Shown here piece by piece: positions 12,309 to 64,000 of a DNA stretch of 64,000 nucleotides. The number at the start of each line of letters is the position of its first letter. Position 1 is the stretch's first letter. Under the pieces are notes generated by a model. That model ran no database searches, was not told where the DNA came from, and saw only the letters and a program-made list of their open reading frames with translations. The stretch comes from Isoetes taiwanensis (Eukaryota; Streptophyta; Lycopodiopsida; Isoetales; Isoetaceae), in the NCBI GenBank assembly GCA_021234155.1, contig JAJEKV010000039.1, positions 498,001 through 562,000 on the forward strand. Reading direction: 5' to 3'. Made by a program: the position numbers and the translations under genes.

Positions 12309-12973
12309 AATTGATGATGTCCTCATCATCACGTGTCTCCCTACCTTGGAAACCTGCATAAACCTTGCAACACATTCCATGCATATAATTTTACAACACA
12401 ATTACCCAAGGTAACATTTAAGTTTAATTTTCATAAACACATCCTTGTTCAATATCATACTATGATAAGTGGGGGTCTCTCACCCTCTTTATCATTTATA
12501 CAAAATTTTATGGTTTACATCATTATCATTAACATAGTTTCGAAATTTTCTAATTAAGCTTCCGTTTGGTCTCCTTGCAACACATTATGACAAAACATGT
12601 GTTGCAAGTCTTCGCAGTGCGACCTTCTTGCCGCTAGACTCCCCTAATGGCCTGCAGGTCCAACACTACGTCAGTATACATTAATTATTTTAAAGTTGGT
12701 TATTAGGGAACCACCCATTAATTACAATTTATATGGATGTGAGGCTAATCTCCCGGCGTAGGAAGATGATGTTTCTTCCATCTTGGCCATGGCGACAACG
12801 CCCTATCATGCCTAAGATGATCACTCATGCCTACACCTTTAGTTGTCTTTGGCATGAAGGATGGCGTCCTTCCCATAGTAGGCATTGACTAGAGGTGCTT
12901 TCCTATCAATGCATGCCTGAATGACCTCTTATCTCTCAAGTTCATCTACTTCCGTGGGACTGAAGTAGACTTC
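12309..12973. other. chromovirus A 3' untranslated region
   Basis: No ORF. The right half (ccttgcaacacat..., gcctgcaggtc, ggcgtaggaaga) matches 49,225-49,560 of element B, showing a conserved 3' leader between pol and the polypurine tract. Confidence 0.6.
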
Positions 12974-13641
12974 TTAATCTACCTCACACTCACCTATCGG
13001 TTCGGTGTCGACTACTTCGGTGACGAGCCGACCCTTGCATTGCTCCATGAATTGGGGGTACTGTTTCTCCAAATCTGATTGTAGTACCCACGCAACGTCT
13101 TCCATAGGGAAGTGCGTCCATTTCACTAGGTATTGGAGAAATTGAGATCTTCTTGTCTTCTTATAGGAACTGTCAAGAAGAACCTCTAGGACGATTTCAA
13201 GCTGGTCGTCCGTCATTTCCAGTAACTCTGTTGCTCCAATACTTCCTCTGGATTAGGAGTGTGCCTCTTCAAGAGACTTACATGGAAGACCCTATGGATT
13301 TTGAGATGCGCTGGCAGGTCCAACTTGTAGGATTGGCTACCTACTCTTTTGGTTATCCTGAATGGCCCAGCCCATCTTGGAGCAAGTTTCTTGCAATTGC
13401 AGATGCGGAGTTTCGCTTGCTTGACTTTGATCTTCAGCCATACGTTGTCCCCAACTTGGAACTCTCTTACCATTTTGTACTTATCGGCTACGCTCTTCTG
13501 TCAGCTTCTCGCTGCTAGGAGATATCCTCTCACCTCTTCCACTAGCTGCTGCATATTCGATAACATCCGTCGAGAGACTTAAACTTTAAACACTGGATTG
13601 TGCCACAAATCTGGTGTCAATCATTGATACCCATAATTAAT
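12974..13641 (-). pseudogene. chromovirus A integrase C-terminus and chromodomain
   Basis: One frame encodes the GPY/F-type integrase end: VREFQVGDNVWLK, KLAPRWAGPFRITKRVGSQS, PAHLKIHRVFHVSLLKRHTP. The next carries a chromodomain: SQFLQYLVKWTHFPMEDVAW. Chromodomains at the end of integrase define chromoviruses and can steer insertion to modified histones. A frame change near 13,215 separates the two. The stop is at 12,974. Confidence 0.85.
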
Positions 13642-14196
13642 CATTAGAGGAAATTTGAGATCTCATTTCATCCCCATAAGAATCCTCCAATTGAATGGCT
13701 ACCCTCTATTAACTGCAATTAATGCAGCACCAACAACTTCATTGCTGTTGTTTTTCCCCCATAACTTTTGATCCACTTGTCAAAATGTTGCGGCGTTTGT
13801 TGCATTAGATGCGGAATAAAAAGATCTTTCTAATGATATATGGTTATGATGTATTTCAATATGGTCATATGCATTAACCTTAAAAAAATATGATTTTTTG
13901 CTTATTTCTTATATATTTATATCGTAAAAGATATATGAATAGGTTATCACTAGATAGATCTTGTGAAGACAAACCCATTGCTACAAAAAGTTTTTGAATC
14001 GGAGTTCTGGATCAAAAGTTATAATGAAAAAATGATACTACAGAAGTTAGTTGCAGCTGCATTAATTACAGGCTGCCACATAATACTGGAATGAGATATA
14101 CTGGAGCTCTTCTCTTATTGGACAGTTTAAAAAGCTGACATGGCATTTTAAGTATCCCTTAATGGGACAAAATGTGATCTCATTTTTTCTCTAATG
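13642..14196. mobile_element. 555-bp MITE, family 1, inside integrase A
   Basis: Terminal inverted repeats CATTAGAGGAAATTTGAGAT and its partner ending CTCTAATG bound 555 bp without a coding frame. Element B is uninterrupted at this site, and the comparison suggests exact insertion with no clear target duplication. A 555-bp copy lies at 41,840-42,394 and a related one at 27,258-27,808. Confidence 0.8.
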
Positions 14197-14204
14197 CATG
14201 AAGG

Positions 14205-15290
14205 GGGGGGCATCCGGGAAGATTCTTGCTTGGTGCTATGATAGGCAAACTCCACCAAGTGAATGAAATCATCCCATTTAGACTGCTTGTTCCAGACATA
14301 GTTTCTCAACATATCTTCTATGATTCAGTTCGTGCGCTCCGTCTGCTCATCCGTCTGAGGATGATATGCAGTATTCATGGAGAGCTTCATCTGAATCGTG
14401 CTGAATAAATCTTGCCAGAATGTGCTCATGAACTTTGAATCTCTATCAGAGATTATTTCTCTCGGCATCCCGTGGAGTCTAAAGATCTCTTTGGTGAACA
14501 ATACAGCGGTGTCTAACGCCGTGTCTGTGGTTCTGCACAGCATGAAATGTTCCATTTTTGACAACTTGTCCACTATCACCATTAGGGCATCTTTGCCCCT
14601 TATGGTTCTTGGGAGCCCTGTGATAAAGTCCATGCTTATTACCTACCATTTTGCATTCGACACATGCAATGGCTCTAATGCTCTAGGAATTCGGAGTCGC
14701 TCCGCCTTCGTCTGCTGACATAGCTGGCACTCACGAATGTACCTGACTATCTGCTTCTTCATGCCGGGCCAGAAGTAGCTACTTTTGATCTTAAAATAGG
14801 TCCTTCATAAAACCTGCATGTCTGGCTATTGGCCTATTGTGTGTGTCATGGAGTATCAACTTCCTGACTCCCTATGACTCTGGTACACACAATTTGTTCT
14901 TATGGTATAATAGGTTACCTTCTTTCTTAAAATGCTTGAAGGTTTCCCTCTCTTTGTCCGTTCTTGCTTCTTTAGAAAGGCTTGCCCATGTTTCCTTGGA
15001 GTTTCGGTCTAGAGGCAACGTCTCTTCTATCTTCTTGTCAAACTCACTGGTGAGTGTTGATATGGCATTGCAGTGGACTCTCGTCGTCAAGGGATGCCTT
15101 AGAGCGCATCCGGAACCACATTGAGCTTGCCTGGCTTGTACATTATGACAGTCATACTCCTCCAGGAACTCCATCCATCTCCTTTGTCTCAAGTTGAGAT
15201 GTGGTTGGGTGAAGACATATTGTAGACTTTGATGGTCTGTATCCAATTGGAAGTTCCTTTCCAATAGATAATGTCTCCTTATTCTCAATG
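14205..15290 (-). pseudogene. chromovirus A integrase core and zinc-binding end
   Basis: MDFITGLPRTIRGKDALMVI, EIISDRDSKF and HPQTDEQTERTN give the D, D and E positions of the retroviral integrase core. Upstream lie YLIRHDTHN-type sequence and the linker from RNase H (DTDHQSLQYVFTQPHLNLRQ). Several frame breaks occur, and the MITE at 13,642 splits the end of the core from the C-terminal domain. Confidence 0.8.
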
Positions 15291-16480
15291 CTCTTACTAC
15301 TGCTAGTACTCTTGGTCATAGGTTGGGTAGCGCATTTCGGCGTTGTTCATCTTCCTTGAATCATATGCTACCACCCTCTCCTCCTACATCAAGACCCCTC
15401 TTGTTGCAATCTTGCTAGCATCTGTTGCCACCAACTTATCTTTCTCTAGATCAGGCAACACTAAGACTGGGGCAGTCGTTAAAGCTTCTTTCAACGTCCC
15501 AAACACTGCATGGGCCTTCCTTTGCCAATGACTCGCCCATCTTTTATCTTCTCTGCTTTGGTGAGGTCCGTTAATGGTGCTGCTACCTTTGCAAAGTTCT
15601 TGACGAACTTCCTTTAATACCCTGCTAAGCCGAGGAAGCTCCTCACTTCATGGATATTCTTTGGTCAATTACCGCTTCAATCTTCGCAGGGTCGGTGGAA
15701 ATCCCCTTTGCTGTGATCACATGCCCCAAGTACTCTATCCCTTCTGTCGCGAAGTGACATTTGGATAGCTTCACATAAAGCTGATGCCTCCTCAACTTTT
15801 CAAGTACCTTCCTCAAGTGTTGGGCACTCCTCTAAAGATTTGCTGTAGACTAGAATGTCATCAAAGAAAACTATGATGAATGTATCTAGAAATTCGCGAA
15901 AAACATCATTCATGAGCCTCACAAAAGTTGCTGGAGCATTGAACAATCCAAATGGCATCATTGTGAACTCATAATATCCATATCTCATCCTGAATGCAGT
16001 CTTATGGATGTCCTCTTCCTTGATTCTGATCTGCCTGATCTCAAGTCTATCTTGGAGAAACCCTTCACTCCTTGCAGTTGATCCATCAAATCATCTGATT
16101 GGGGTAGCGCATACTTGTTCTTAATGATGTGCTTGTTCAATTGACAATAGTCAATGCACATTCTGAGACTTCGATCCTTCTTCTTGAAAAAAAGTATTGG
16201 CGCTCCAAATGGAGAGATGCTAGGTCTTATAAACCCTAGGTCTAGCAACTCCTACAATTGCTTCTTCAATTCCATCAACTCCTGAGGTGACATCATGTAG
16301 GGCGCCTTACTTGTTGGCTTCGTTCCTGGCTCAAGTGTTATTTCACACTCGACTCCTCTGTAGGGTGGAAGTTGCTTAATCTCATCTGGGAACACATCAT
16401 GGAATTCCTTCACCAACTTGGTTATAGGCTTTGGCAGCCCTGGGGGATTCACCTTTATCACATGAGCATATGCCACCTGC
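15291..16480 (-). pseudogene. chromovirus A reverse transcriptase / RNase H region
   Basis: Fragments in several frames: [60 protein letters not shown] and the catalytic [10 protein letters not shown]. The order and motifs are Ty3 RT. Short indels separate the pieces. RNase H continues toward 14,872. Confidence 0.85.
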
Positions 16481-16680
16481 GTGCTTAAGGTGAGAAGAAA
16501 CACCTCTATATATGTACGCAAAAGTGTTGAAAAAACACCCCTTCCGTGGAGAAAATACACTAGAATGTCAATAAGAGGGGGATTTAAACCCCTATTATAC
16601 GTACGAAAACATCGAGAAAAAACCCCCTTCCACACACTCACTAGGTTTATACGGGTCTTCTGTGTGAATCCCCCGGGTTG
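16481..16680. other. about 190-bp extra segment between protease and RT of element A
   Basis: Element B runs straight from its protease tail to KEFHD..PDEIKQLPPYRG, whereas A carries an extra segment. It includes two similar motifs (gtgttgaaaaaacacccctt at about 16,531 and catcgagaaaaaaccccctt at about 16,610). It may be a small insertion; no clear ends were seen. Confidence 0.4.
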
Positions 16681-18718
<2,038 letters not shown>

Positions 18719-18865
18719 ACATATTAGATTGTACCCTCAAGATTAGCTTTGATGATATAGTTGTGGAGACAAAATATATCAAAGAACATATATAATGCTA
18801 TAACTTATATTCATAAGGTGCAATATTTCTACAATTGATAATAGACAGAAAAAAAAAGTTTTAAT

Positions 18866-20406
18866 TTATTCCTGGAATCTTCTATATACCGGGTTGTCTT
18901 CCAAGAACTTCTTCACTTGGCCTGTGCCAACTGTTCGCCCCAAGTTTCCAAGGATGTTGGTGGCCGTACCACCTTCAAGTGCCGTCACCAGGTCTTCGAT
19001 CCTTCTATCCGACGTGTAGGCTGCAGTGACGACCAACCTGCCATGTCGTCTGTATAAGGCTGCAAAGTCGAAGACACTCAAAGCTATTGTCCTCTTGACC
19101 AGGATGACATGGTCGATGTTTGGAGGCATCCGAGCATGCCTTCCAAATCCTGAGAGGGCAATCAGCATGAAGACTCCTTCTCCCCGTGAGCTAAACTGGC
19201 GGTGTATGACCGCTATCCTTCCGTCGTTGAGGAGTGACAGGTAAAATCTGAGGGCTTTGTTGTGTCCTCCCTCCGCGGCTTCTTCTCCAGTTCTGATTCC
19301 AGTCATGTGTCTTCCGGAGTATTCATCTACCGGTACTGCTATCATTTCTCCGTAGTCTCCGAACATGGACCTGGAAGAGGTCAAGTTGATACCGCCTCTT
19401 TTCAATTCGATTGGCGCTACTGCAGAGGTGCTGGGCAGGAGTGCACTTGTTGTTTTTTCTCTGATGCCCATCCGCTCTTGGAGTGCGATACATTCCTACT
19501 CCGAGGGTAGCTCCTGTTGTGTCATCATCTGTCGGATGCCGGTATAAGCTTCGATGTCCGATGACGACTGGCCAGAGTACGTGTGCGCTTCCCTGATGCT
19601 GATGTGGATGTCTTGAGTCTCCCGGTCGATGAAGTCATCGAGATTGGGCTGCTGGCGTAGAAGGTGCATGAGTTCATCCACCCTGTAACCTCTGTCTCTG
19701 CACTCTGGGAGGTTCTTTATATCATGGAGTGTCAGGTACTCCTCTCCTTAGATGATGACCGGGGTTAGACTGGTGATGCCTAACCCAAGTGGAGGGGCTG
19801 TCCTTGTGACTCTCAACCCTTCTTCGAAGCTTGGAAGATCCTCTTCTGCTTGCTGCCTTTCTTGTATGGGGTCGACGTCGATGATGGCTTCTACGTCGTA
19901 TCCCTGTGCTTCCTCTGCCTCTTCCTCCTGTTCTGATTCCTCATAGTCCAGGAGCATTTGCCCCTCTTCGCCTGCTTCTGTGGCCATGGGTTCAATCTCC
20001 AGAGGCTGAATGGAGGGTTCCCCTGTCTGGGTTTGGGCTCTTTGGGACAAAAAGATAGCTACAGCTGTAGTATAAGAGAAGTATCTCTTCCTATTTATGG
20101 ATATAATCATATAATTTGGCATGCGAGCAGCTTTATTTTCTAGGTATTTATCTATATTTGGGATATCATTCAGAGCGGTAGGGAGGGTTGTTCTAGGTGC
20201 AAAGTAACCTATGCATGGGGGAAGTTCTACTAGAGAAGGTCCTATCTTGGCATGGAACTCGGTCATGATCTCTTGGTAAAAAAGTGTGGCATTTATGGTG
20301 GCATCCACATCGATCTCCTTTTGGAAAATGGTGAAGACCGAGTTGATGTCAGCCTCAGCCACATGAGCAGTGGCGCTGTACCATCGCCTGAATGCAGAAG
20401 TGGACA
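18866..20406 (-). pseudogene. ORF2 of chromovirus A, unknown function, two nonsense codons
   Basis: It starts MSTSAFRRWYSATAHVAEAD at 20,406 and ends VYRRFQE at 18,866, about 510 codons in a single frame. It is interrupted only by TAA near 19,748 and TAG near 19,494. Conserved blocks shared with the B copy are PCIGYFxPR, YFSYTxALAIFLS, LLRQQPxLDDFI, DGRIAVIHR, FMLIALSGFGRHA, DHVILVKRT and NLGR.V.T.QVKKFL. A Glu-rich hinge lies in the middle. It sits between the H3-like ORF and gag. I recognise no family; the length and position suggest an accessory or structural retroelement protein. Confidence 0.7.
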
Positions 20407-20424
20407 TGATGCTGATGCTGCTGG

Positions 20425-20810
20425 TGTGACGTCCCCTACTCATATACGGTGCACTCACCGTATACAAACAGGAGTTCATCCCCCATACCAGCTCCATACT
20501 GATACAGGGCCCTCCACGTATCACTACAACCTTGATGAGTTCTAGTGGGAAGAGTGAAGGGGTCATTTTACCCTGTCTCCCTCAGGGCCTACCTAGCTGC
20601 GGAAGCGTAAACATACATGTCAGTACACAACATCACATCTCATAACCACCTCGAAGGATGACTCATCACATATCTGCATAGACAAAGATCAATACATCAC
20701 ATTAGGAGATCCTACCCAAGGCTCAGACTCAAAGGGTATGACTGACGGCTTGGGTCTCCAGAGGTCATTGCAGACAGAATTCATGGCAATGGATTTGGCT
20801 GGCATAAGAA
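20425..20810 (-). mobile_element. chromovirus B 3' LTR, outer part
   Basis: Starts tgtgacgtcccctactcata and matches 61,263-61,650 of the intact 5' LTR almost base for base. It ends ggcataagaa, where the array inserted. The rest of this LTR resumes at 43,733. Confidence 0.95.
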
Positions 20811-30037: not shown

Positions 30038-30174
30038 ATCGCGCGACAGCTTTCCTTCGATGATGGCGCCCCAAGCGAGACGCCATCTAGGAAAGGAGTT
30101 CTTCCGGGCGTGAAATTTCTACGACATTATGGCGTAAGAAAGGAAAATCGAATCGAACCTCGCAAGCGGACACC

Positions 30175-43205: not shown

Positions 43206-43732
43206 GGTTCGGGAACTCCTGCAAGACAGCCCTCTGTGAGGACCCTTGGATCTAACAGGAGAATCCGGGGACTATGTCACGCGGGATTTGCAAGAAAACA
43301 AAGGAACGGGAAAAGAAAACAAAGAACAATGAGACAACAATGATAAGCTTCCTTGAAATCAATGATGATGATACATGAGCTCTCGCTACCGAGAGAAAAC
43401 TGAAGTGAGACAAGACTCAAAACAAGTGGCCCAATATAGACACTCTGACTGATTTCGGTGCCGACTCCTGGAAGGAGGCCTGATTTGCAGGAATGCTGGC
43501 GGTGCCTCTTGAAAAGCCTGAAATCCCGATGACGCTGACGCGGGCGGTGACGGGCCGTCACTTGTCTGAGCACCGCCTCTTGTTGACGCCAGGCGTGGTC
43601 TTTGTCTGCGTGGTCTGCTTGGTCTTCTGCTGAGCCTTTGACGACTGACTCGCGCCTGATTGTGGATCCTTGCTCTTGACTTGGTCTGTTGTATGCATGA
43701 ATAGTCCTGTACCAGGAGGCACAGGACTAACA

Positions 43733-44944
43733 AAGAACATGGTCTAGGGTAGTCCACTCCATCCGCCCCTCCTGTGCACACTTTGCAGAATAGGTTGAGA
43801 AGTGTTGGGACCTGACTGTAGCCCACCGGGTGCATAGCCAAAGGGGCTATTCCCGGGTTGCATCTCCCCAGTCCCGATGGGGCAGGTAGGGATCACTCCC
43901 ACCAGAGATTGGCATGCTGACTCAAGGTGACTAGAGGGCCACTGCCCATACTCGACTTGAACTCCATGGAAGGTGTCCACCACCCCAAGAGTGTCGAACC
44001 CATGCAAAGCCCTCACGCAGTGGCAGAGCATTAGGTCTAGTGCACAATAGTCCCCGATAGGCTTTACTACCAGAGGGACGTGATCATGAGTCAGGACATG
44101 AACCTCCTTGTAAACCAGTCTGGCCCCTTCACCCACAACCAGGTGTGGCTCTTGTACACAGGCCGAATTTACAGTGCACTAAAGAGGCTAGCTAGGAGCA
44201 TCAACTACTAGGCTTTAAGGTCTCTACCCCCCTCCCCAATACAATGAGTCCACAGAGATACATCACCACATATATATCACAGAAGAACTAAGGAACAAGA
44301 TCTAATCTAAATCACAGAGTTAGGTTCTTTAGTTATGGCTCGATATCTAGAGATCTAGATGGCTGCTATGGGCAAATCAATAGGCTAAACCTACTTATTC
44401 TATGTCTGGGAGGCAGTTTAGACTATTGAATTGACAAAATACCTGATCCTTGGCTTGCTCCTCCTGCTCTGAACTCGATCATGCTGCTGAACTGCTAGAA
44501 GATGAAGCTAGGAAGGGAAACTGATCAGCTAGACTGCTCAGACCGAGTCTGGGAGGCGAGTTTGGCTCTTGGAGCAAGCAAAACAGAGTCCTAGAATGCT
44601 ATAGACAAAAATAGAAAGTTAGGGTTCCCTTTACCTATATAGACTAAGGGTTAGGGCTAGGGTTTCCCATTATCCCTTTAAGCATGTGGGATAATTGGGT
44701 GTGGCCCACTTGCCTTTATTAACTAGGTGGCATAAAATGTCCACATGGGTAAATGTGTACACATGGATAAATGTGCACATGAGTAAATGTGCACATAAAT
44801 AAGTGTACACACCTTGCAAGTTGCCCCCTAGGGTGCTACTTGCTCGGCTACGCGTTGGCATACACGTCAGTCGGGATGGCGTGTACGCGTGACGAGGCAG
44901 TACAGTATACGTCTTAGGACCGTATACTATGCTGGAACGTCACA
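43733..44944 (-). mobile_element. chromovirus B 3' LTR, inner part
   Basis: Continues the LTR from 20,810 (aagaacatgg...) and ends gctggaacgtcaca. It matches 61,643-62,853 of the 5' LTR. The two parts together give about 1,593 bp, against 1,591 bp for the 5' LTR. Confidence 0.95.
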
Positions 44945-45786: not shown

Positions 45787-45890
45787 TAGTCTACTTGATC
45801 CCAAGTTTTTCTCTTTTCTGGATCTTTTCTCTTTATTATTTTCTCAATCAAAACGAGAGCTTTACATCGCCAACGAACTTGGCAATTTTG

Positions 45891-46510
45891 TTTGACATAT
45901 GATAAATTTTTAGTTAGAGTTTCTACAGCATACTACATTGTCTGAAATTCAGATATATGTTGGATAGTTATTACAAATTATTAAATCAAAGTAGAATGGT
46001 AATTGGTGTTGGATGATTTTAGAGATTGGTCAGGAAACACTGTATATTGTGATGCAAGCATATATTCGGACAATGTGAAATGGGCACCAGGATTTGCTAC
46101 TCACGAGAAATATAGACGTGCCAACAAGACATATGATGTAGAGCTGAAGCCTCTGCTTTCTGCATTTACCCCGAGGCCATTGGCACTCACAGTTCTCCTT
46201 TGTTTGACATATGATAAATTTTTAGTTAGAGTTTCTACAGCATACTACATTGTCTGAAATTCAGATATATGTTGGATAGTTATTACAAATTGTTAAATCA
46301 AAGTAGAATGATAATTGGTGTTGGATGATTTTAGAGATTGGTCGAAAACATCAGATAATCGTGATGCAAGCATATATTCTGGACAATGTGAAATGGGCAC
46401 CGGATTTCCTACTCATGAGAAATATAGACGTGCCAACAAGACATATGATGTAGAGCTGAAGCCTCTGCTTTACGATTTACCCCGAGGCCATTGGCACTCA
46501 CAGTTCTCCC
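45891..46510 (+). repeat. 312-bp tandem duplication with exon-like content
   Basis: The unit starting tttgacatatgataaatttt occurs at 45,891 and 46,203, nearly identical. Each holds VLDDFRDWS, DASIYS, FxTHEKYRRANKTYDVELKP. A one-base change in copy 2 alters the frame. The source protein is not recognised. Confidence 0.8.
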
Positions 46511-49697: not shown

Positions 49698-50460
49698 TCA
49701 TCGGTAACAACGCATGCAACCCATACCTAGCATAGGCTGCATGCGTAGATTAATCTTAACTACACATAAAATTAATCTAACACAAATCAACATGCCTGAG
49801 CCGATTTCTTCGGAGATGACCTTGCCGTCCCATTGCTCCATAAACTGTGGGTACTGCTTTACTAGGTCCTTCTTAAGTACCCATGTCGCGTCTTCCACGG
49901 GCAAGTGTTTCCAATTGACCAGATATTGGAGAAACTCTGATCTCCTTGTTTTCTTGAAAGCTTTATCAAGAATCAATTCTGGAACTATCTCCAGCTGTTC
50001 TTCTGTCATTTCCAACAACGTTGGAGTGTCCAAGACTTCATCTGGATTTGGAGTATGCTTCTTCAACAAACTCACGTGGAAGACCTTATGAATCTTTAGG
50101 TGTGCTGGTAGCTCCAACTTGTAGGATTGATTACCTACTCTCTTGGCTATTCTGAAAGGTCCAGCCCACCTTGGAGCAAGCTTCTTACAAACGTTGTCGC
50201 CAACTTGGAACTCCCTAACCGTCCAATGCTTGTCGGCGACGCTCTTTTGTCGACTCCTTGCTGCAAGAAGATATCCTTGGACCTCTTCCACCAGCTGCTG
50301 CATGTCGGCCAACATTTGCTGCGAAACCTCTACTTTTGACACGGGATTGTGCCAAGTGTCTGGAGTTAGACATTGGTAGCCGTAGTTGATCATGAATGGC
50401 GACATTTGGGATGATTCCTGCTTGGCGCTATTATAAGCGAACTCAACCAAGTGAATATAC
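49698..50460 (-). pseudogene. chromovirus B integrase C-terminus and chromodomain
   Basis: Open for 250 codons: VEFAYNSAKQESSQMSPFMI, KKLAPRWAGPFRIAKRVGNQ, FHVSLLKKHTPNPDEVLD, then chromodomain residues FLQYLVNWKHLPVEDATWVL. The B copy is continuous where A is frame-shifted. About 15 residues of the GDNVW..KVK segment are deleted. The N-terminal end joins the integrase core across a MITE. Confidence 0.88.
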
Positions 50461-50784
50461 TGGGTGAAAGCATGCTACGGTGTACCACTTTTGGAACCCT
50501 CAAAAGTACCTACACTGGGTACTTTGAAAACTGGTACTTTTTGTTTTTTCTTCCCATTAAAATCAATCCAAAATTTTTGAATTGAAGGTCAATAACATGT
50601 CAATCTATAATAGTAGATGATAACAATACTATTAGAGACTAAAATGAATGAATCAACTCTCAAACTTATTGTTTATTGAGACATTTATGCAAGTTCCTAG
50701 TACCCAGTGTTGGGTACTTTTTTGGGTAGTTTTGCACTCCCTAAAAAGAACTTTATATGGTACACCCTAGCATGCTTTCACCCA
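50461..50784. mobile_element. 324-bp MITE inside integrase B
   Basis: Ends TGGGTGAAAGCATGCTA and TAGCATGCTTTCACCCA, followed inside by GGTGTACCA / TGGTACACC. Element A lacks it. Target duplication is not clear. No coding frame. Confidence 0.75.
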
Positions 50785-51500
50785 CTCTTCCCACATGCTC
50801 TGCTTGTTCCAGACATAGTTTTGTAGCATATCTTCCAAAATTCTGTTGGTCCGTTCTGTTTGCCCATCCGTCTGAGGAAGATAGGCCGTGCTCATGGACA
50901 GCTTCGTCTAAATCGTCGCAAAAAGATCTTGCTAAAAGGCACTCATGAACTTCGGGTCTCTGTCGGAGATAATCTCTCTCGGCATGCCATGGAGCCTGAA
51001 GATTTCTTTGGTGAAGAGCTTCGCTGTATCCATAGCTGTGTCAGTGGTCCTGCAAGGCACAAAGTGTGCCATCTTCGACAACTTGTCGACCACAACCATC
51101 AAGGCATCTTTCCCTCTTACTGTCCTCGGAAGCCCTGTTATGAAGTCCATACTGATGACCTCCCACTTAGCGTTTGGCACCGCTAAAGGTTCCAATGCCC
51201 CTGGAATTCGAAGCTGCTCTGCTTTCGTCTGCTGACACAACTGGCACTATTTGATGTAGCGAGCTATCTGCTTCTTCATCCCTGGCCAATAATAGCTGCT
51301 GCGCACTTTGAAATATGTCTTCATAAATCCTGCGTGGCCAGCTATTGGACTGTTGTGGGTGTCGTGGAGAATCAACTTCCTCACCCCTGATGATTCAGGC
51401 ACACACAACTTGTTCTTATGGTACAAAAGGTTACCTTCCTTCTTAAAATTTTTGAAGGTCTCCCTCTCCTTATCTGTTCTTGCCTCCTTGCACAAGCTCG
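50785..51500 (-). pseudogene. chromovirus B integrase core and zinc-binding domain
   Basis: HDTHNSPIAGHAGFMKTYFK ... CQLCQQTKAE (HHCC), ISMDFITGLPRTVRGKDALM, EIISDRDPKFMSAF and TDGQTERTN near 50,845 (DDE). Stops occur at the end of the zinc domain (about 51,247) and after KFMSAF. Confidence 0.85.
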
Positions 51501-52200
51501 TTCATACTTCCTTGAAATCTATATCTGTTGGCAAGGTTTCTTTGATCTTCTTTCCTAAGTCGCCGGAGAGCGTCGAAATTGCATTGCAGTGTACTCTTGT
51601 TGTCAGAGGATGCCTTGAAAGCGCATCTGCTACCACATTGAGCTTCCCCGGCTTATAAACTATATCAAAATCATATTCTTCGAGGAACTCCATCCACTTT
51701 CGCTGCCTCAGGTTAAGATGTGGTTGCGTGAATACGTATTGGAGGCTCTAATGATCTGTGTCCAACTGGAACTTCCTCCCCAACAGGTAGTGCCTCCAAA
51801 TTCTTAGTGCTCTGACAACTGCAAGCAACTCTTGATCATGAGTCGGGTAGCGCGTTTTGGCGTCATTCATCTTCCGAGAATCATAAGCCACTACTCGCTC
51901 TTCCTGCATCAGCACTGCACCTGTGGCAATCTTACTTGCATCCATCGCCACAAGCTTGTCCTTCTCTGGGTCTGGCAGGGTCAAGACGGGGGCGGTTGTC
52001 AAAGCTTCCTTCAACATCTCGAATCTTGCTTGGGCTTTCTTCTGCCAATGATCTTCCCAATCCTTTACTTTTTTCGCCCTCGTCAAATCTGTTAGCGAGG
52101 CCGCTATTTTTGCAAAGTTCTTCACGAATTCCTGTAGTACCCTGCTAGCTTCTGACCTCATGGATATTCTTCGGCGCCGGCCACTATATGACTGCTTCAA
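51501..52200 (-). pseudogene. chromovirus B RNase H and linker
   Basis: LVAMDASKIATGAVLMQEER, HDQELLAVVRALRIWRHYLL, then a stop after QLDTDH, then SLQYVFTQPHLNLRQRKWME and VVADALSRHPLTTRV. This is the Ty3 RNase H order. Confidence 0.85.
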
Positions 52201-52950
52201 TCTTGGCAGGATCTGTCGAAATCCCCTCCGCTGAGATCATGTGCCCCAGATACTCTACTCTCTCTGTTGCAAAGTGGCACTTCGACAACTTAGCGTACAA
52301 CTGTTGCCTCCTTAGTTTCTCAAGCACTCTCTTTAGGTGTTGTACATGGTCTTCAAGGGATTTGCTGTACACCAAAATATCATCAAAGAATACTATCACA
52401 AAAGTATCCAAAAACTCCCTGAAGATGTCATTCATGAGCCTCATGAACGTTGCTGGGGCATTTGACAAGCCAAACGGCATCAGGTCAACTCGTAATGCCC
52501 ATACCTGGTCCTGAATGCTGTTTTGTGGATGTCTTCTTCCTTTATCCTGATCTGATGGTACCCCGACCTTAGGTCTATCTTGGAGAAAACCTTTGCCCCT
52601 TGGAGCTGATCCATCAGATCATCTGATCTAGGAAGTGCATACTTATTCTTGATGGTGTGCTTATTCAACTGCCTGTAGTCTATGCACATCCTCAAGCTGC
52701 CATCCTTCTTCTTCACAAAAAGAATGGGTGCCCCAAACGGTGAGACGCTAGGTCTAATGAACCCTAGGTCAAGCAGCTCCTGCAATTGCTTCTTCAACTC
52801 GGTCAGCTCTTGCGTCATCTCCTGTACGGAGCCTTGCTCATCGGCTTCGTACCTGGTTCGAGTGCTATCTCACACTCGACTCCCCTGTAAGGAGGAAGCT
52901 GCTTGATCTCATCTGGGAAGAGATCGTGGAACTCCTTGATCAACTTAGCT
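52184..52950 (-). pseudogene. chromovirus B reverse transcriptase
   Basis: [60 protein letters not shown], a one-base break at about 52,482, then MPFGLSNAPATFMRLMNDIF and the active-site [10 protein letters not shown]. Closest to the A copy, with fewer lesions. Confidence 0.9.
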
Positions 52951-52952
52951 AT

Positions 52953-54762
52953 CTACCTTGGCAACTTGTTGAGCACCTTATCTTCCTTGCTTTCTTCTGA
53001 CTCGGGCTCTTCGATCTGAAGCTTGAAGATATATGCTACCTGCTTGCCCTTTATGCACTTGAGCAGCCGCTTACTAGACATACACTGCATGATAGGAACA
53101 ACTTCTTTACCTGTGATCTCAATGATTTTGCCGTTGGGCGCCGTGAGGGTCACTTTCCGCTTCCCACAATCAATGAGGGCTCCTGCTGGACCAAGATACT
53201 CCATTCCTATGATCAAATCATATCTCCCAATATTCATCACTTCTGCCCCCATCTGGATGTTGATTCCCGGCAAGTCAATGTCGAAGTTTATCCTCTTGCC
53301 TGCCGTGTGTCTTACTCCCCCGTTTGCTAACACCACGGGTCTCGGCTTTGACTTCAACGGTTTCAGCTTCAACATCTCAACCATTCTTGGGGACGCAAAG
53401 TTGTGGCTACTTCCCGTATCTATGAGGACTATGAATGACTTGGCCTTGGCCTTCCCTACTGTGGAGATTACCTGATACTGATTCTCTGCTTGGTCTGTAT
53501 CTATGGCAGCAAAAATGTGACACTCACCCTGAATGAAATCGCGTGCCTCCCCGCCATCGTCGTCAGAGGGAGTCTCCCATCCACCCAACTCTGCTAGCGT
53601 CGCATTCATGACGTAGGAGCAGTTCGCTGTTCTGTGGCCCGGCTGGAAGCATCGGAAGCAAAGCTGTTTCTCTATGCACTCCTGCCTCTTCTCCTTGGGC
53701 ATTGCTTGCAAAAAGGACCGCACTGCTTTGGAGTAGTTTGATCCCTTTTGCTTGTCCTTGAAGGACACTTGCTTCTTCTCCTGCTGCTTCCCATAGTTGC
53801 CACTATATGGGGCTTTAGCTGGACCTGGGCTAGCTGCTCTAGGGCTATAACTCCCTCTTCCCTTGCCCTTATCCTGATAGTACTGCTGCTTCTGCCCGCT
53901 GTTCTGAGGCCCCGTTCCTTGCAAGCTTACTGCCGTGGATTCCGCTTCTGACACCGTCTTAGGGTTTATTGCCCTTACTAGCTTTCGGATCTCCTCGTTC
54001 AACCCTTCTATGTATCCTTCCACTGCGTGCCTTTCGCTCAACTTGGGCACATACAACCTCAGCTTCATGAACTCCTCTGTGTACTTTTGCACTGTCCTGC
54101 TGCCCTGCTGGAGTCGATAAAACTGCTGCATCATGTGACATTTATGTTCCCGTGGTACATAATGGCGCTTGAAAGCCTTAGCAAACTTTTTGAACCTGCA
54201 ACTATCCCTGCTTAAGCCATGGGCCTTGGCGTAGCCACCGTAGGCGTTACCATATTCACTCATCTCATCTAGCCAAGCCTCTGCTTCCATGCCTGACCTG
54301 TTGTCACCTGAGAATTGCTCAAGCTTTCTGGCCTTCCATACATTACCCAGCGCCGAGTCTACCTTCTTCTGATAGTCTGAGGCCTTTGTGTCCCTGTGTC
54401 TGCCGTCCCTACGGTCCTGTACCTGTTCTTCCTCTTCCTCGGAGTCGGAGTCCGAATCTGAGCTTGTGTCGGAGGATTCCGTGCTGGGAGACCTCCTTCT
54501 CTTGCTCCTCTTCTTGTCCTTCCCCGTCTTCTGAGGTAGTGCTTCCGGCAACTGGATGTTGTTATCTGAGCCAACTCCTGCTTGCGCTGCCAAAAAGACC
54601 TTTATTTGCTGAAGGTCCATCCTCATCTGTGACATTTCCTTCTCGGGAGTCGTGGGACCGAATTCTTCATACAGGTTCCTTGCTGGGTCCTGCCTGGTGG
54701 AGTCTGTTCATCCCTATGGGCTCGCCGTTCTTGTTCAGCTGTGCCTGGACCTCTAGCTGCAT
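52953..54762 (-). pseudogene. chromovirus B gag and aspartic protease
   Basis: The start MYAARGPGTAEQERRAHRDE at 54,762 is separated by a frame change from a 560-codon open frame (54,635-52,953). In that frame: a Ser/Asp/Glu-rich stretch, KARKLEQFSGDNRSGMEAEA (capsid), CFRCFQPGHRTANC (zinc knuckle), VLIDTGSSHNFASPRMVEML (protease, DTG). About 25 capsid residues present in A (ARIWWKG region) are deleted. Best preserved part of the element. Confidence 0.9.
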
Positions 54763-57045: not shown

Positions 57046-58567
57046 CTATTCTTGAAATCGCCGGTAGGATGGATTATCTTGAAGAAACTTCTTAACTTGG
57101 ATTGTTCTTACGGAGCGTCCCAAGTTCCTGAGGATGTTGGTTGATGTCCCGCCCTGCAAGGCTTGCACCAAGTCTTCTATCCTATGGTCGGACGTGTAGG
57201 CCGTGGTCACTGCTAGTCTTCCCTGCCGTCGGTAGGGTATGGCGAAGTCAAAGATGTCAAGTGCCATCGTCCTCTTGACTAGGATGACATGGTCAACTGT
57301 TGTGAGCAGTTGAGCATGCCTGCCAAAGCCGGAGAGTGCGATGAGCATGAACACTCCTTCTTCGCCTCTTGGGCTGAACTTGCGGTGTATGACCGCTATC
57401 CTTCCGTCCATTAGCAGAGGCAGATAATACCTCAATGACCTGTCCCTGCTTGCTGCTGAAGATTCGTCGCCCCTCGGCCACCAAATTCTATGTCTTCCCC
57501 AAGATATTCGCCGACGCCAATCTCTGAGTTCTCTCAGAGTCCCCGATCAACCGATGAGATTCGCCTTTAGGTCAATCTCGCCTTCTCTCTCTGTGGGGCT
57601 GGTGTCAAGAGCTCTAAGATCAAAATGTTCGTGGTTTTGCCACGGATCCCCATCCGTTCTTGGATGGCGAGAACTCTTCTTCACGGGTGGTACCGAAGCT
57701 TCCATCATTTGCCTGATGTCAGCCAGAGGGAAATGTCCCAAGTCGACTCCTGTAGGTGTCGGCTTCTCTTACCTGAATTGGGAAGTCGGAAGCTCCCCGG
57801 ATGATGAAATCATCCAGATCTGGTTGTTGTCGCAGAAGATGCAAAGAACTCGCCAAGTCGGTACAGACTCGCCCCTCGCATTCGGGAGGTTCGATGTCAT
57901 TGAGGAGCGTGTACTCTTGGTCGCCGATGATGATGGGGCTAGGCTTGTGATACCTAGCTCGAAAGCGGGAGCGATCCCGAAAGTGTCCGCCAAATCCGCT
58001 CAAACTTGGTATCTCTTGTTCTGCTAGCTGCCGCTCTTCTTCTGGGTCGAGCTCGACATAGTCCTCGTCATCAGATTCCTCGTCTTCGGCTCTTCCTTCT
58101 TGCTCCTGTTGATACTGTAAAAGGAGTTGACCCTCTGCTGAGGAGGCTAAGGGGTCTACATCCATGGGAGGAATAGAGGTTTCCCCAAGGTTCTGGGCAT
58201 GGTGGGAAAGAAAGATTGCTAGGGCGGCGGTGTAGGAGAAATACTTGGTCATATCAACGGTCAAGACCATGTAGTCTGGCAACCTCTGAGCCTTGTTGGT
58301 CAGATACTTGGCAATGTTGGGAACATCACCCAAGGCTGCTTGGAGGGATGGCCTAGGAACAAAATAGCCTATACAAGGGAGGAGCTGCACTAAGGACGGT
58401 CCTACCCTAGCTTGGAACTCGGTCATGACTTCCATGTAGGCTGGGGTTGCTTGCAAGGTGGCTTGGACATCTATCTCTTTTCGGAAGACTTGGAAAATGG
58501 CATTGACATCGGCCTCAGCTGCATGGGCGTTGGCGCTGTACCATCGCCTAAAATCAACAGTTGCCAT
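57046..58567 (-). pseudogene. ORF2 of chromovirus B, unknown function
   Basis: Start MATVDFRRWYSANAHAAEAD at 58,567, end SYRRFQE at 57,046. Collinear with the A copy (18,866-20,406): PCIGYFVPRPSLQAALGDVP, YFSYTAALAIFLSHHAQN, an acidic hinge, LLRQQPDLDDFI, then after frame changes near 57,740 and 57,480 FMLIALSGFGRHAQLL, DHVILVKRTM and NLGRSVRTIQVKKFLQDNP. Conservation between A and B in both halves indicates a real protein. No known domain recognised. Confidence 0.72.
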
Positions 58568-58873
58568 GGGTCTAGAGGGGATTGGACTAACAAACAGATG
58601 CAAAAGCGCCTCAGGGAGCTGGAAGATCGCCTAGAAGGTCGGGAGCAAACTTGTAGGATGCTAAGTGAGAAATGGGGGCCTATTTATAGACAAGGGGAAA
58701 ACCCTAATTTTTGGATGACTTGGAAAACTCTTGGGGTTGGGCAAATCCGACCTATTTTGAGGTCCAAATGGGGATTGGAAGGCTAATTTGAGGGTGACTA
58801 GGACTATCTAATGAACCTATTGCAACAAACTAGAGGTCAATTGGATATGGCATGCTGGAGAAAATGCTGGGAG

Positions 58874-59140
58874 GTCTCACGGTGTGCGCCAGGAGGCAAA
58901 ACCAAAATTTGGTTTTTGGTCTGGGCGCATACCGTGAGACATTGGCCCCAATTTGGTCTAGACTTATCTAAACAAGGTGAACTAGGGTCAAAACATGATA
59001 ATCTCATCGAGATATGCAAGATTGACCCCTTACTTGGCCGATTTGGAGATGTTTTGGACTAGTTTAGGCATGAAGGTCTCACGGTGTGCGCCAGGAGGCA
59101 AAACCAAAATCTGGTTTTTGGTCTGCGCATACCGTGAGAC
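58874..59140. repeat. two hairpin units downstream of the H3-like ORF (B)
   Basis: 58,874-58,940 and 59,076-59,140 each fold with a stem GTCTCACGGT.GTGCGCC against GGGCGCAT.ACCGTGAGAC around a loop containing aaaaccaaaatttggttttt. Spacing is 202 bp. They lie between the stop of the H3-like ORF and the start of ORF2. Confidence 0.88.
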
Positions 59141-59284
59141 ATTGGGCACTACTTGGCCTACAAATGTCCAAATTTACTAAAACAAAGGGCAATTGTTGCT
59201 AATTTGACCTAATTAACATCAATTATGCACATATAACTTACAACAAAACACTTTGTATTAATCAAAATTTTGTCATTTACAAGA

Positions 59285-60564
59285 TTAATGGGGTTCTCCC
59301 TTAATGTGACTGGCGAGGTGCATGTCTTTCTTCACTAAGGTTACCCTCTTGGCATGTACAGTGCAGGCTGTTGAGTCTTCAAAATGCTGCATCAGCTTCT
59401 GCTCGGTTGCTTCCTGTAATGCCAGCAGCATCTCGTCCATTATCCTCATGTCGGAGCTGTATTCTTGTATAACTTCTCTCACCAGCCGGGCGAACGGTGC
59501 ACGGGGAATAAGGAAGCCGTAGCTGCACTGAAAATGCCTGATCTCCTTCAATGCTCGTGACTGGTTGGACTGGGCTTTCCTTTTCGCTGGCTTCTTTGGA
59601 GGAACAGGCTTCTCGGGCGGCGGCTTGAGCGTCTGCTTCTTGGATGGCCGTCCACCTGCTACAAAAGTGACCTTATTCGCCTGATAGTAAGAGTTGTAAG
59701 CCTCCCACTTCTTCGTAAATTCCTTGTGCGCCTTAAGCTTCTTCTGGTAGACCCTGATAGGGTCTATCACGTATGACTCCCTGGCAGGTCGAGGCGGCTT
59801 CTTGTTGTCCTTATCCTTCTCCCATGTTGGATATGGCGGGGGTTCCTGCACCTGCTCTGGCTGCTCCTGGTCTCCCTGCTCGTCACCTGAAGGCTTGGAA
59901 GAACTCCCACCTTCTAGGTTAGGGTTGAAATCTTCGTCATCCGAGTCGTCCGACGAGGCTGGTTGGTCGGCCATGCGCTCTTCGATGATGATCTTTGTCT
60001 TCGGGGTCTTCTTAATTCTTCTCTTGGCTGCTCCACGTCCTTGCCCTTGAGCTTCTTCTTTTCTTCGGCCTCCTTTTCTTCCCGTTTCCTCTTCTTCTCG
60101 GCCTTCTTCTTCTCTCGGCGCCGTTCCTTCGCCTCGTGCCTTCGAATCCAGGTCGCGAGTTCTTCCTCCAGGGTCGGTTCGGGAGTCGGCTCCCTCTGTT
60201 CTTCGTGCACCTTTGCCTCCTGCTCTCGCTCGGCCTTTTCTTGTTTCTCTTTCTCCATCTGCTCGAGCACTCTCTGGATTTCGTCGTTGCCTTCTATTTC
60301 CTCGAGCACTTCTGTCGAGGCCTCCGAGTGTACCTCTGCCGGCTCGTCTATCTGCTGGTCTATCTCCTGGCCGATGATGTCGGCTAGGTTATCTTGTGCT
60401 CCCTGCTGGGATCCCTCCCCCTGGTGCTCCTCTGAAACTGTCCCCTCACTTGATGAAGGTCGGTCTCCTCTCGCAAGAAGACGCTCCCGAAGCATCTGCT
60501 GGAGTTGGGCGCTGGCCATTTCGTCTCCTCGAGGAACCCGAGCAGTCTGTTTGGTTCTCACCAT
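59285..60564 (-). pseudogene. histone H3-like protein of chromovirus B: H3 tail, long linker, H3 fold
   Basis: ATG at 60,564 gives MVRTKQTARVPRGDEMASAQ, matching the H3 N-terminus in RTKQTAR. A linker of about 250 residues follows: acidic, then strongly Lys/Arg/Glu-rich (EKKRKREEKEAEEKKK). Near 60,000-60,060 the frame shifts by one base, and the second frame carries DDSDDEDFNPN, EPPPYPTWEK, a Lys/Pro-rich basic stretch and the fold (59,554-59,288). The fold reads ALKEIRHFQ, LIPRAPFARLVREVIQEY, LLALQEATEQKL, FEDSTACTVHAKRVTLVKKD, LASHIKGE. These align through the whole canonical H3 fold, with H3-type (not CENP-A-extended) loop 1 length. The expected role is nucleosome incorporation or mimicry. 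The frame break may be mutation, programmed frameshift or a missed intron. Confidence 0.85.
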
Positions 60565-60767
60565 GTTTTACGTCTCGTCGATCGGAGGTCGCAAAAATCG
60601 CCTCAAAAAGCGGGAGCAATTTTCTAAACAGGAAACCTACATGAGGGGGTCTAGGTCTATTTATAGATTGGGCAATTTTAGGTCAAATTCTAAGTTGCTC
60701 TTTTGGATGTGCCAGCGCACCTATTAACCTATAACATATGCTTACTTCAGACTTTTCTAAACCATTG

Positions 60768-61046
60768 GTCTCACGGTGTGCGCTGGGAGGCCAAACCAAA
60801 ATTTGGTTTTGGGTCTGGGCGCATACCGTGAGACATTTGGCATTTTTGACTAAATTATATGATTTCTAGGCATATTCTTAGGGGTATAACATATAGATCT
60901 AACTAATTCTTATCTTAAAACTCGATTTAGCATGTTAGTTTGTTAAAATTCATCATGTTTCAAGGTGATTATGGCCCATGTCTCACGGTGTGCGCTGGGA
61001 GGCAAAACCAGAATTTGGTTTTTGGCCTGGGCGCATACCGTGAGAC
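60768..61046. repeat. two hairpin units upstream of the H3-like ORF (B)
   Basis: 60,768-60,834 and 60,980-61,046 repeat the stem and loop design of 58,874-59,140 (GTCTCACGGTGTGCGC ... GCGCATACCGTGAGAC), 212 bp apart. They lie in the 5' leader between the primer binding site and the H3-like start codon. Confidence 0.88.
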
Positions 61047-61249
61047 CTTTGCTACTTTAAGTAAAAAATTATTCTTTTTTTTTTTTTTTTTAGTTTTCTT
61101 GGTTCTTCAATTCTTCTAACTGTTACTAGCTTAGCATATACTACAAAAATGAGAAAAAAATTTCCCACTTTTTCGAGGTTTGAGAATCCTACTAAGTTAG
61201 TACTACTGGGAGCATGGTCAGTGCTCTGCTCTTGGTCACCAAGAACATT

Positions 61250-61261
61250 GCTCTGATACCA
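61250..61261 (-). other. primer binding site of chromovirus B (initiator Met-tRNA type)
   Basis: The minus strand reads TGGTATCAGAGC one base after the LTR end (GACGTCACA). This is the complement of the plant initiator Met-tRNA 3' end used by many Ty3 elements. It fixes the coding direction and identifies the LTR at 61,263 as the 5' LTR. Confidence 0.93.
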
Positions 61262-61262
61262 C

Positions 61263-62853
61263 TGTGACGTCCCCTACTCATATACGGTGCACTCACCGTA
61301 TACAAACAGGAGTTCATCCCCCATACCAGCTCCATACTGATACAGGGCCCTCCACGTATCACTGCAACCTTGATGAGTTCCAGTGGGAAGAGTCAAGGGG
61401 TCATTTTACCCTGTCTCCCTCAGGGCCTACCTAGCTGCGGAAGCGTAAACATACATGTCAGTACACAACATCACATCTCATAACCATCTCGAAGGATGGC
61501 TCATCACATATCTGCATCGACAAAGATCAGTACATCACATGAGGAGATCCTACCTAAGGCTCAGACTCAAAGGGTATGACTGACGGCTTGGGTCTCCAGA
61601 GGTTATTGCAGACAGAATTCATGGCAATGGATTTGGCTGGCATAAGAACATGGCTTAGTCTAGTCCACTCCATCCGCCCCTCCTGTGCACACTTTGCAGA
61701 ATAGGTTGAAAAGTGTTGGGACCTGACTGTAGCCCGCCGGGTGCATAGCCAAAGGGGTTTTCCTGGGTTGCATCTCCCCAGTCCCGATGGGGCAGGTAGG
61801 GATCACTCCCACCAGAGATTGGCATGCTGACTCAAGGTGACTAGAGGGCCACTGCCCGTACTTGACTGGAACTCCATGGAAGGTGTTCACCCACCCCAAG
61901 AGTGTCGAACCCATGCAGCCCTCACGCAGTGGCAGAGCATTAGGTCTAGTGCACAATAGTCCCCGATAGGCTTTACTACCAGAGGGACGTGATCATGAGT
62001 CAGGACATGAACCTCCTTGTAAGCCAGTCTGGCCCCTTCACCCACAACCAGGTGTGGCTCTTGTACACAGGCCGAATTTACAGTGCACTAAAGAGGCTAG
62101 CTAGGAGCATCAACTACTAGGCTTTAAGGTCTCTACCCCCCTTCCCAATACAATGAGTCCACAGAGATACATCACCACATACATATCACAGAAGAACTAA
62201 GGAACAAGATCTAATCTAAATCACAGAGTTAGGTTCTTTAGTTATGGCTCGATATCTAGAGATCTAGATGGCTGCTATGGGCAAATTAATAGGCTAAACC
62301 TACTTATTCTATGTCTGGGAGGCGGTTTAGACTATTGAATTGACAAAATACCTGATCCTTGGCTTGCTCCTCCTGCTCTGAACTCGATCATGCTGCTGAA
62401 CTGCTAGAAGATGAAGCTAGGAAGGGAAACTGATGAGCTAGACTGCTCAGACCAAGTCTGGGAGGCGAGTTTGGCTCTTGGAGCAAGCAAAACAGAAGCC
62501 TAGAATGTTATGGACGAAAATAGAAAGTTAGGGTGCCCAATACCTATAGAGACTAAGGGTTAGGGCTAGGGTTTCCCATTATCCCTTTAAGCATGTGGGA
62601 TAATTGGGTGTGGCCCACTTGCCTTTATTAACTAGGTGGTATAAAATGTCCACATGGGTAAATGTGTACACATGGATAAATGTGCACATGAGTAAATGTG
62701 CACATAAATAAGTGTACACACCTTGCAAGTTGCCCCCTAGGGTGCTACTTGCTCGGCTACGCGTTGGCGTACACGTCAGTCGGGATGGCGTGTACGCGTG
62801 ACGAGGCAGTACAGTATACGTCTTAGGACCGTATACTGTGCTGGAACGTCACA
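61263..62853 (-). mobile_element. chromovirus B 5' LTR, complete, 1,591 bp
   Basis: On the minus strand it starts TGTGACGTTCCAGCACAG and ends GGGGACGTCACA. Its two parts match 43,733-44,944 and 20,425-20,810. The flanking GCTGG at 62,854-62,858 repeats at 20,420-20,424. Confidence 0.95.
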
Positions 62854-63741
62854 GCTGGGTTATCAAACAGATCTAGAAGCGCCTCTGGGAGCTGAAAAAT
62901 CGCCTTGGAGTGAGGAGTAATGATGCAAATGAGGGTTGTGGTTATATCTATAGGCAAAAACCTAATCTGAGAAGTTTTTAGGGTTTGGGAATATCTATCA
63001 CTTCAAGGTCCCGCTATGCAATTGATAGGTGATCTAAGTTAAAGAGTACCTCCTAATGATTCTATTGCAAAAAAAATTATCTAATTTGGAGGTAGTTGGG
63101 ATGAATTTGGGCCATTTTAGTCTGACCATTCACACAGTGCGCGAGAGGCATTTTCAAAACTTTTGGAAATGGTCCTGGCGCACTTTGTGAGGGGTGGGCT
63201 CCTGTTTGGGGCCTAGATAGCTCTAAAATTATAATCTAAGGACAAAATCCTACTTATCTCGTCGAGTAAGGCGGTTTGTGCCCTTAATTTCTACATTTGG
63301 ACAAGTCTAGACATAGATTAGTGGCCAAACACTCACATAGTGCGTGAATGCCATTCTCAAAACTTTTGGAAATGCTCCTGGCGCACTCTGTGAGGTGTGG
63401 GCTCCTATTTGGGTCTAGATAGCTTGAAAATTACAATCTACGGATAAAATCTTATTTATCTCGTCGAGTTAAGGCGGTTTGTCCCCTTACTTTCTATATT
63501 TGGACAAGTCTAGGTATAGATTAGTGGCCAAACACTCACACAGTGCACGAGAGCCATTTTCAAAACTTTTGGAAATGCTCCTGGCGCACTCTGTGAGGGG
63601 TGGGGCCCAAAATAGTGACTTTTTGTCCAATTTAACTAATTCCAACCGTGCATGCCATTATTACAATCTTATATTAAATACAAAGTTACGCTTCACAACT
63701 TGATCAAAACACATTTTTAAAATGTTTACAGTTACATCATG
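62854..63741 (-). mobile_element. chromovirus A resumes: spacer between H3-like ORF and ORF2, with hairpin repeats
   Basis: The sequence after the GCTGG duplication (agatctagaagcgcctctgg) matches 58,580-58,625 upstream of ORF2 in B, so it is the continuation of element A from 20,424. Hairpins at 63,130-63,190, 63,333-63,393 and 63,536-63,596 (TCACACAGTGCGC ... GCGCACTTTGTGA) repeat every 203 bp. Their sequence differs from the B hairpins but position and GTGCGC/GCGCA stem core are kept. Confidence 0.85.
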
Positions 63742-64000
63742 TTAGCAATCTTCCTTCTTTATGAACCTGGCTAACTTCATGTCTCTGGGCATACAAGTGA
63801 CTTTCTTTGCATGAGAGCACATGCTAGGGAATCTTCAAAGTGCCCGATCAACTTTTGCTCTGCTGCCTCCTGCAATGGAAGTAACATGTCATCTGTTACT
63901 CTGTTGGTCTTGTCAAATTCCTGCAGGATTTCACGGGTTAGTCTTGTGAAGGCAGCTCTTGGAATTAGCAGTCCGTAGCTCCTCTGAAAATGTCGAATCT
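63742..64000 (-). pseudogene. histone H3-like protein of chromovirus A, C-terminal fold, runs off the window
   Basis: Reading in from the edge: IRHFQRSYGLLIPRAAFTRL, TREILQEFDKTN, LPLQEAAEQKLIGHFEDSLA, then a one-base break near 63,812, then HAKKVTCMPRDMKLARFIKK, EDC and stop at 63,742. It aligns to the B copy and to H3 over the same span. The break falls just before HAKK. The N-terminal tail and linker lie outside the window. Confidence 0.85.

Follow-up and report, generated by a model that had tools for sequence, protein, structure and literature searches.

DNA viruses encode histones, as exemplified by the marseillevirus and medusavirus histones and the bracovirus H4, some of these proteins having extended tails, and plant genomes silence transposons largely through H3K9 methylation. 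A review of additional open reading frames (ORFs) in plant LTR retrotransposons (Vicient and Casacuberta 2020, PMC7264820; drawn on here, as are the other papers cited, from the part of its text that was available) finds them more often downstream of pol, ahead of the 3′ LTR, with env-like and antisense ORFs among the kinds named; the word 'histone' is absent from the available part of its main text. Orchid Ty3 elements carry an AlkB-like 2-ODD ORF, described in a screen of 121 angiosperm genomes that names AlkB, G-patch, KOW, ArgoL2, B3 and others as non-standard LTR-element domains (PMC9289625), and the main text of that screen, as far as available, contains neither 'core histone' nor PF00125. 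The main texts of the genome papers for Isoetes taiwanensis (PMC8566536) and I. sinensis (PMC10541799) do not, in their available parts, contain 'histone', and limited searches of open-licence literature found no retroelement carrying a histone.

We analysed a 64,000-nucleotide stretch of the I. taiwanensis genome (the window), in which a retrotransposon, element B, is inserted in an older element, C, just before ORF2 of C. Element B (~19.5 kb when a nested insertion is left out) is a Ty3 chromovirus with LTRs, a primer site, a target duplication, gag-pol and a chromodomain. It resembles Ty3/gypsy chromoviruses in its LTRs, primer site, gag-PR-RT-RH-IN arrangement, terminal chromodomain and 5-bp target duplication, and is unlike them in having three ORFs before gag, one of which is histone H3. 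All coding parts run in the same direction, in the order ORF1, ORF2, ORF3, gag-protease, reverse transcriptase, RNase H, integrase and chromodomain. The features of both elements are listed by coordinates, strand and identity.

63751..63998, minus strand: H3 core of element C; the frame changes near 63813
63129..63599, no strand assigned: three palindromes of element C, with their own sequence and a layout like that of B (repeat comparison)
62854..62858, minus strand: target site duplication CCAGC, 5′ side, flanking element B
61263..62853, minus strand: 5′ LTR (TGTGACG...CGTCACA) of element B, with a length of 1591 bp and 97% identity to the two parts of the 3′ LTR
61250..61261, minus strand: primer binding site TGGTATCAGAGC, separated from the inner end of the 5′ LTR by a single base
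60978..61048, no strand assigned: palindrome of ~70 bp between primer site and ORF1 (repeat comparison)
60767..60835, no strand assigned: second copy of the palindrome (repeat comparison)
59285..60564, minus strand: ORF1, the H3 chimera, from the ORF list and translation; spans two frames in the window copy
60538..60564, minus strand: H3 tail start MVRTKQTAR, from the translation; R2, K4 and T6 kept, V where K9 stands
59288..59653, minus strand: H3 region, beginning near H3 residue 11 and reaching the C-terminus, by Pfam and PDB-sequence matches; it includes the histone fold at 59288-59557
59072..59144, no strand assigned: palindrome copy upstream of ORF2 (repeat comparison)
58872..58942, no strand assigned: palindrome copy upstream of ORF2 (repeat comparison)
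57719..58567, minus strand: ORF2 (MATVDFRRWYS...), conserved in element C (49%)
57049..57546, minus strand: ORF3, a separate frame after ORF2, 69% identical in element C
52953..54707, minus strand: gag and aspartic protease (Retrotrans_gag 4e-12, RVP_2 1.3e-9)
51748..52869, minus strand: reverse transcriptase and RNase H, split over several frames (RVT_1 2.7e-22 and 3.1e-13, RT_RNaseH_2 6.5e-31)
49698..51246, minus strand: integrase core, SH3-like domain and chromodomain (rve, SH3_Tf2-1 1.8e-18, Chromo 7e-9)
43733..44944, minus strand: 3′ LTR of element B, first part (LTR identity)
20425..20810, minus strand: 3′ LTR of element B, second part, separated from the first by the nested insertion 20811-43732
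20420..20424, minus strand: target site duplication CCAGC, 3′ side, flanking element B
12572..20419, minus strand: rest of element C, with ORF2 (20408-19577), ORF3, gag and pol, by similarity to element B

The initial annotation had called element B a chromovirus with the ORF in question between the primer binding site and ORF2; the element map agrees on the position, and the primer site and the matches for gag, pol and the integrase chromodomain bear out the class. The primer site, TGGTATCAGAGC, which presumably pairs with initiator-Met tRNA, is the sole match in the window at one mismatch or fewer (0.28 expected by chance), and the polypurine tract AGGTAGGGAGAA lies directly before the 3′ LTR. 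Over 1595 compared bases, the LTR pair differs at 41 (K 0.026). At the integrase C-terminus the Chromo match scores 35.9 bits (E 7e-9) against a cut-off of 25.1; the match of the integrase core to rve (E 1.5e-6, 28.8 bits) is below its cut-off of 32.6. A CCHC knuckle in gag is visible by eye (zf-CCHC_2 E just 0.1), and the pol frames are broken in the window copy. TATA-like boxes stand 100–121 bp before ORF1 and ORF2, at positions that are inconsistent in other loci. ORF2 and ORF3 are conserved across the family (also at locus L018, 5415-7508) with no Pfam or NCBIfam match above cut-off; window ORF2 also has no match in the protein collection, and window ORF3 no family match above cut-off in either library. 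In element C, the start MARTKQTARV and the primer site fall past the end of the window, in the adjoining piece L087, and the H3 cores of C and B share 57–65% identity in the pieces that align. Element B has, between its ORF3 and gag, a tract of ~2 kb (55000-56960) that is almost pure pyrimidine on the plus strand—purine on the sense strand of the element—and contains repeats at a spacing of 400 bp. A tandem duplication of ~312 bp (45887-46509; 95% identical) lies in the 3′ internal part of this element. The nested insertion 20811-43732 is repeat-rich (20813-21403, 21992-22586, 30173-30766 and 43203-43732), and its ORFs have no match to element B.

ORF1 of element B starts with an ATG at 60564, and its N-terminus, MVRTKQTAR, is the start of an H3 tail, a feature absent from the initial annotation. 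The window copy is split over two frames (60567-59917 and 60388-59288, minus strand); relatives with a single frame are found at loci L040 (414 codons from M) and L056 (~430 codons, start codon changed). The H3 motifs that the initial annotation had read in this ORF are present on the minus strand of the window, and the profile check proposed there, against Pfam Histone (PF00125), gave a significant match (ORF 60388-59288, minus strand; residues 255–362, E 2.1e-24, 86.6 bits, cut-off 26.4). Among PDB sequences, the window ORF aligned with H3 over H3 residues 11 to 133 (best E 1.7e-23). ORF1 of element B thus consists of both ends of H3 with ~290–300 non-H3 residues inserted near H3 residue 9. 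An intact tail, ARTKQTARKS with both K4 and K9, is not present: the K4 end is kept, the insert follows residue 9 and the remainder of the tail is reworked (by eye), leaving AGGRPSKKQTL before the core in the lineage of the window (host, TGGKAPRKQL). The structure check that had been proposed gave a weak result. With the predicted core as the Foldseek query, each of the 16 best matches was a histone chain from a nucleosome, octamer or hexasome (E 1.1e-4 for the best), but the superposition was poor (TM 0.34, rmsd ~14), and the prediction, in which H3 was modelled without H4, reached a pLDDT of 51 alone and 62 with an alignment. Judged by its sequence, the C-terminal part of ORF1 is histone H3, far beyond chance; the identification rests on the sequence because the isolated fold is poorly predicted. 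In database searches, 13 long proteins matched the window protein with E of 1e-5 or lower; the layout of ORF1 was absent from the eight of these 13 whose sequences were inspected. The H3 region alone gave top identities of 42–57% among the best 120 of 1020 matches, and two IMG/VR scans for relatives found none.

Like the histones of DNA viruses, ORF1 would be a case of a mobile genome supplying a nucleosome component, some of the viral proteins also having extended tails; unlike them, it belongs to a reverse-transcribing element, H3 alone is seen and the insert in the tail is ~300 residues long. The family is similar to the LTR elements in the available part of the review cited above (PMC7264820) in having a conserved additional ORF in most copies, and differs from the usual additional ORFs described there in that ORF1 sits between primer site and gag. 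It is also similar to the orchid AlkB elements, as far as the available text describes them (PMC9289625), in being a giant Ty3 family that has kept a captured host-type domain over replication rounds, but those elements encode an RNA demethylase and the H3 family encodes a chromatin component.

The H3 ORF belongs to a large retrotransposon family. The assembly (1,658,258,908 bases in 1110 contigs) yielded 8705 first-look candidates for the Histone profile, which are not copy numbers, and 150 of them were scored, all above cut-off. The 15 best cover profile positions 2–122, and the eight of these that were fetched are ordinary host H3 genes (N-terminus MARTKQTARKSTGG); the remaining 135 begin at profile positions 4–25, many of them in open frames of up to 494 codons. 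Twelve loci were selected from the 135, and hence by the histone, and examined over 10 kb: each of the 12 contains ORF2 together with the H3 core and the N-terminal domain of ORF1, while ORF3 is present in ten, gag in ten and the exact primer site in eight. The initial annotation had asked whether family copies lack the ORF, and a search run outward from ORF2, independent of the histone, did not refute the ORF as a family feature, finding H3 in most of the copies sampled. Among 90 ORF2 places scored from 6978 candidates, 35 have an H3 core (from the 150 scored Histone places) upstream on the same strand, at a distance of 230–363 bp in 33 of the 35. When 20 of the other 55 were drawn at random, 18 had an H3 core within the 441-bp upstream piece, several of them broken and one (L075) a remnant only, and two (L072 and L079) had no H3 core in that piece. 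From the ORF1 side, an H3 core from the scored list lies downstream in 20 of the best 40 of 150 N-terminal-domain places. The window's own kind is abundant, with at least 150 scored places at 74–100% identity. A chance insertion of host H3 in one copy is ruled out, given that both window elements and most sampled family copies carry H3.

The cores fall into two lineages. In lineage I (26 cores), 79–86 of 97 core residues are identical to host H3, and the cores form one group in the core tree (100/98; bootstrap not fully settled); in lineage II, that of the window, 46 of 93 are identical, and its long branch groups only with element C. Tail residues were read by anchoring on the sequence after the start or tail, so that K was not demanded. 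The fifth residue from M is K in all 25 lineage-I starts (26 loci anchored, one without a start), which are of three kinds—MPRFK and MSRFK, MExxK, and MANTK—and the N-terminal domain of this lineage is a new one of ~200 residues, for which nothing was found above cut-off in Pfam or NCBIfam, or among PDB sequences; the tail remnant HPSTGGKS stands before the core (compare ARKSTGGKA). For lineage II, 23 of 30 loci could be anchored; K occupies position 4 in 19 of the 23 (the remaining four have a stop or are out of register). At residue 9, 16 loci have V, two have K and five have another residue.

These lineages may descend from one old capture of H3, or host H3 may have been captured two or more times, with each lineage having a capture of its own. 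Repeated captures would fit the core tree, which does not join lineages I and II, places II on its long branch and needs two changes for a group of all retroelement cores; they would also fit the weak alignment upstream of the core, where hhalign of the two lineages is convincing over the H3 core only and the preceding 60 residues align weakly. ORF2 of lineage I matches that of lineage II weakly (E 0.02, 18% identity), and lineage-I ORF2 has no match to window ORF3. On the other side, both lineages share the slot, the break point in H3 (about the same place, by eye), the K4 end and gag (44–50% identity in the five best of nine matched loci; 26–59% over all pieces), which favours one old capture, and the 26 lineage-I cores form a single group with shared changes. 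One old capture is the more probable, although lineages I and II stay apart in the core tree, and we consider repeated captures unlikely. The idea that a centromeric H3 was captured came from the motifs LIPxAPFxRLVRE and EIRHFQ in the window protein and is not supported by loop length or tree. ORF1 is like CENH3/CENP-A in being a divergent H3 with a non-standard N-terminal region, and the best long matches of the window protein look CENH3-like; unlike plant CENH3, its loop 1 has the length of canonical H3, without the plant CENH3 insertion, and neither lineage groups with CENH3 in the tree (lineage II on a long branch; bootstrap unsettled).

ORF1 is under strong purifying selection, and it is an additional ORF kept in most sampled copies. 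Among 17 lineage-I genes with a recognised start (pairs with dS ≥2 or ≤0.05 dropped), the core has a median omega of 0.042 (from the 61 usable pairs of 136), the N-terminal domain one of 0.114 (38 of 136) and the linker one of 0.178 (54 of 136), so that the H3 core is the most conserved part of lineage-I ORF1. The lineage-II core has a median omega of 0.103 (range 0.043–0.902; 222 of 231 pairs, from the 22 of 30 loci with an open core). Omega is biased downward in both lineages, since the sequences were taken from the top of score-ranked lists. Elements B and C of the window, which were not chosen by score, differ at pS 0.83–0.89 and pN 0.23–0.25 with synonymous sites saturated, the longer count reading element C in two frames. 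That lineage II is a mere decay of lineage I is ruled out by the many open frames and the median omega of 0.10. A host H3 copy dragged along as a passenger of no use to the element would fit the many copies broken by stops or frameshifts (the window's included), but omega far below 1 in nearly all pairs, saturation between B and C and the presence of H3 in most sampled copies make a passenger highly improbable.

Selection has left a distinct pattern of residues in lineage I. All 26 cores have T107A, with S or G in place of E105, A or T in place of S86 and F or H in place of S87, and the most consistent differences from host H3 lie at residues 86–89 and 102–107. Changes common to all lineage-I cores argue against repeated recapture within this lineage and for function. 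R83, C110, H113, K115, R116, T118, K122, D123 and L126 are unchanged in all 26, and we take such invariant positions (R83, C110, H113, K115, R116, D123, L126 and others) to be in contact with H4, H3 or DNA. On the DNA side, R42 is changed to K in 5 of 26 cores, R49 to C in one, R63 to C in one and K64 to R in 19. A conserved core with invariant contact residues is most simply explained if the protein pairs with H4 and enters nucleosomes; such assembly is less certain for lineage II because this lineage is far from host H3 (46 of 93).

Two other functions would also be compatible with a selected H3 core. The chimera could coat element cDNA or the pre-integration complex, in the particle or the nucleus, as a private nucleoid protein that does not act on host chromatin. 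In favour of packaging, ORF1 precedes gag and shows the conservation of a structural gene, and most DNA-side residues are retained in the core. H3 needs H4 for folding and for wrapping DNA, however, and the Pfam-scanned ORF2, ORF3, gag and pol pieces contain no second histone; the kept K4 end of the tail would also have no clear use in packaging, which we regard as unlikely though by no means negligible. Alternatively, the chimera could interfere with the host away from the element, as a decoy for H3 chaperones, H4 or K4 readers, or as a chromatin poison. The foremost lineage-I differences lie at 86–89 and 102–107 (residues around 87–90 are presumably the ones that chaperones tell apart), and the lineage-II tail start is close to exact, but a pure decoy would not need the DNA-side residues R83, K115 and R116, which are kept, and we find host interference distinctly doubtful.

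The reading that we favour, with slightly better than even confidence, is that a chromovirus family captured H3 long ago as ORF1 and that the chimera enters nucleosomes, lacking the K9 site and keeping K4. In the old capture, a host H3 gene would have become ORF1 between primer binding site and ORF2. The ORF1 protein would pair with host H4 and enter nucleosomes, for which the DNA or cDNA of the element itself is the likeliest place, which suggests that the elements may build their own altered chromatin. Nucleosomes with the chimera would lack the K9 site methylated in plant silencing but retain the K4 end, and would bring in the extra domain of the element; with them the element would stay open to transcription, and its chromodomain integrase could recognise them. 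From the tails, we infer that keeping the K4 end and losing or displacing K9 in most copies could confer resistance to H3K9 marking, against which stand the two of 23 lineage-II tails that keep K9. More tentatively—we see this as possible rather than probable—H3 laid on the element's own copies would block H3K9 silencing and let the chromodomain integrase find kin chromatin.

We know of no description of an H3 changed at K9 that serves a transposon as a countermeasure at the level of the nucleosome. If the favoured reading is true, an element-borne H3 altered at K9 would be a direct nucleosome-level countermeasure to silencing and would amount to an element-encoded epigenetic state. The family would also be a natural experiment, with many diverged, selected H3 cores with a rebuilt tail in one genome beside host H3, and it offers a test of whether chromatin deposited by an element is read by that element's chromodomain integrase. 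Transposons can also push up the number of histone genes counted in such genomes.

One lineage-I element, at locus L013, has two LTRs that are 95.3% identical and a target duplication, GTGACC (5–6 bp). Its gag frame continues into integrase-like sequence, and reverse transcriptase is absent by tblastn in L066, the piece downstream of L013; the element may be a deletion derivative. The stretch between primer site and ORF1 contains palindromes of ~65–77 bp, mostly as tandem copies, which are also found at loci L010, L013, L014 and L015 (near 3280-3760); their sequence varies between subfamilies with a similar layout, and element B has further copies before ORF2.
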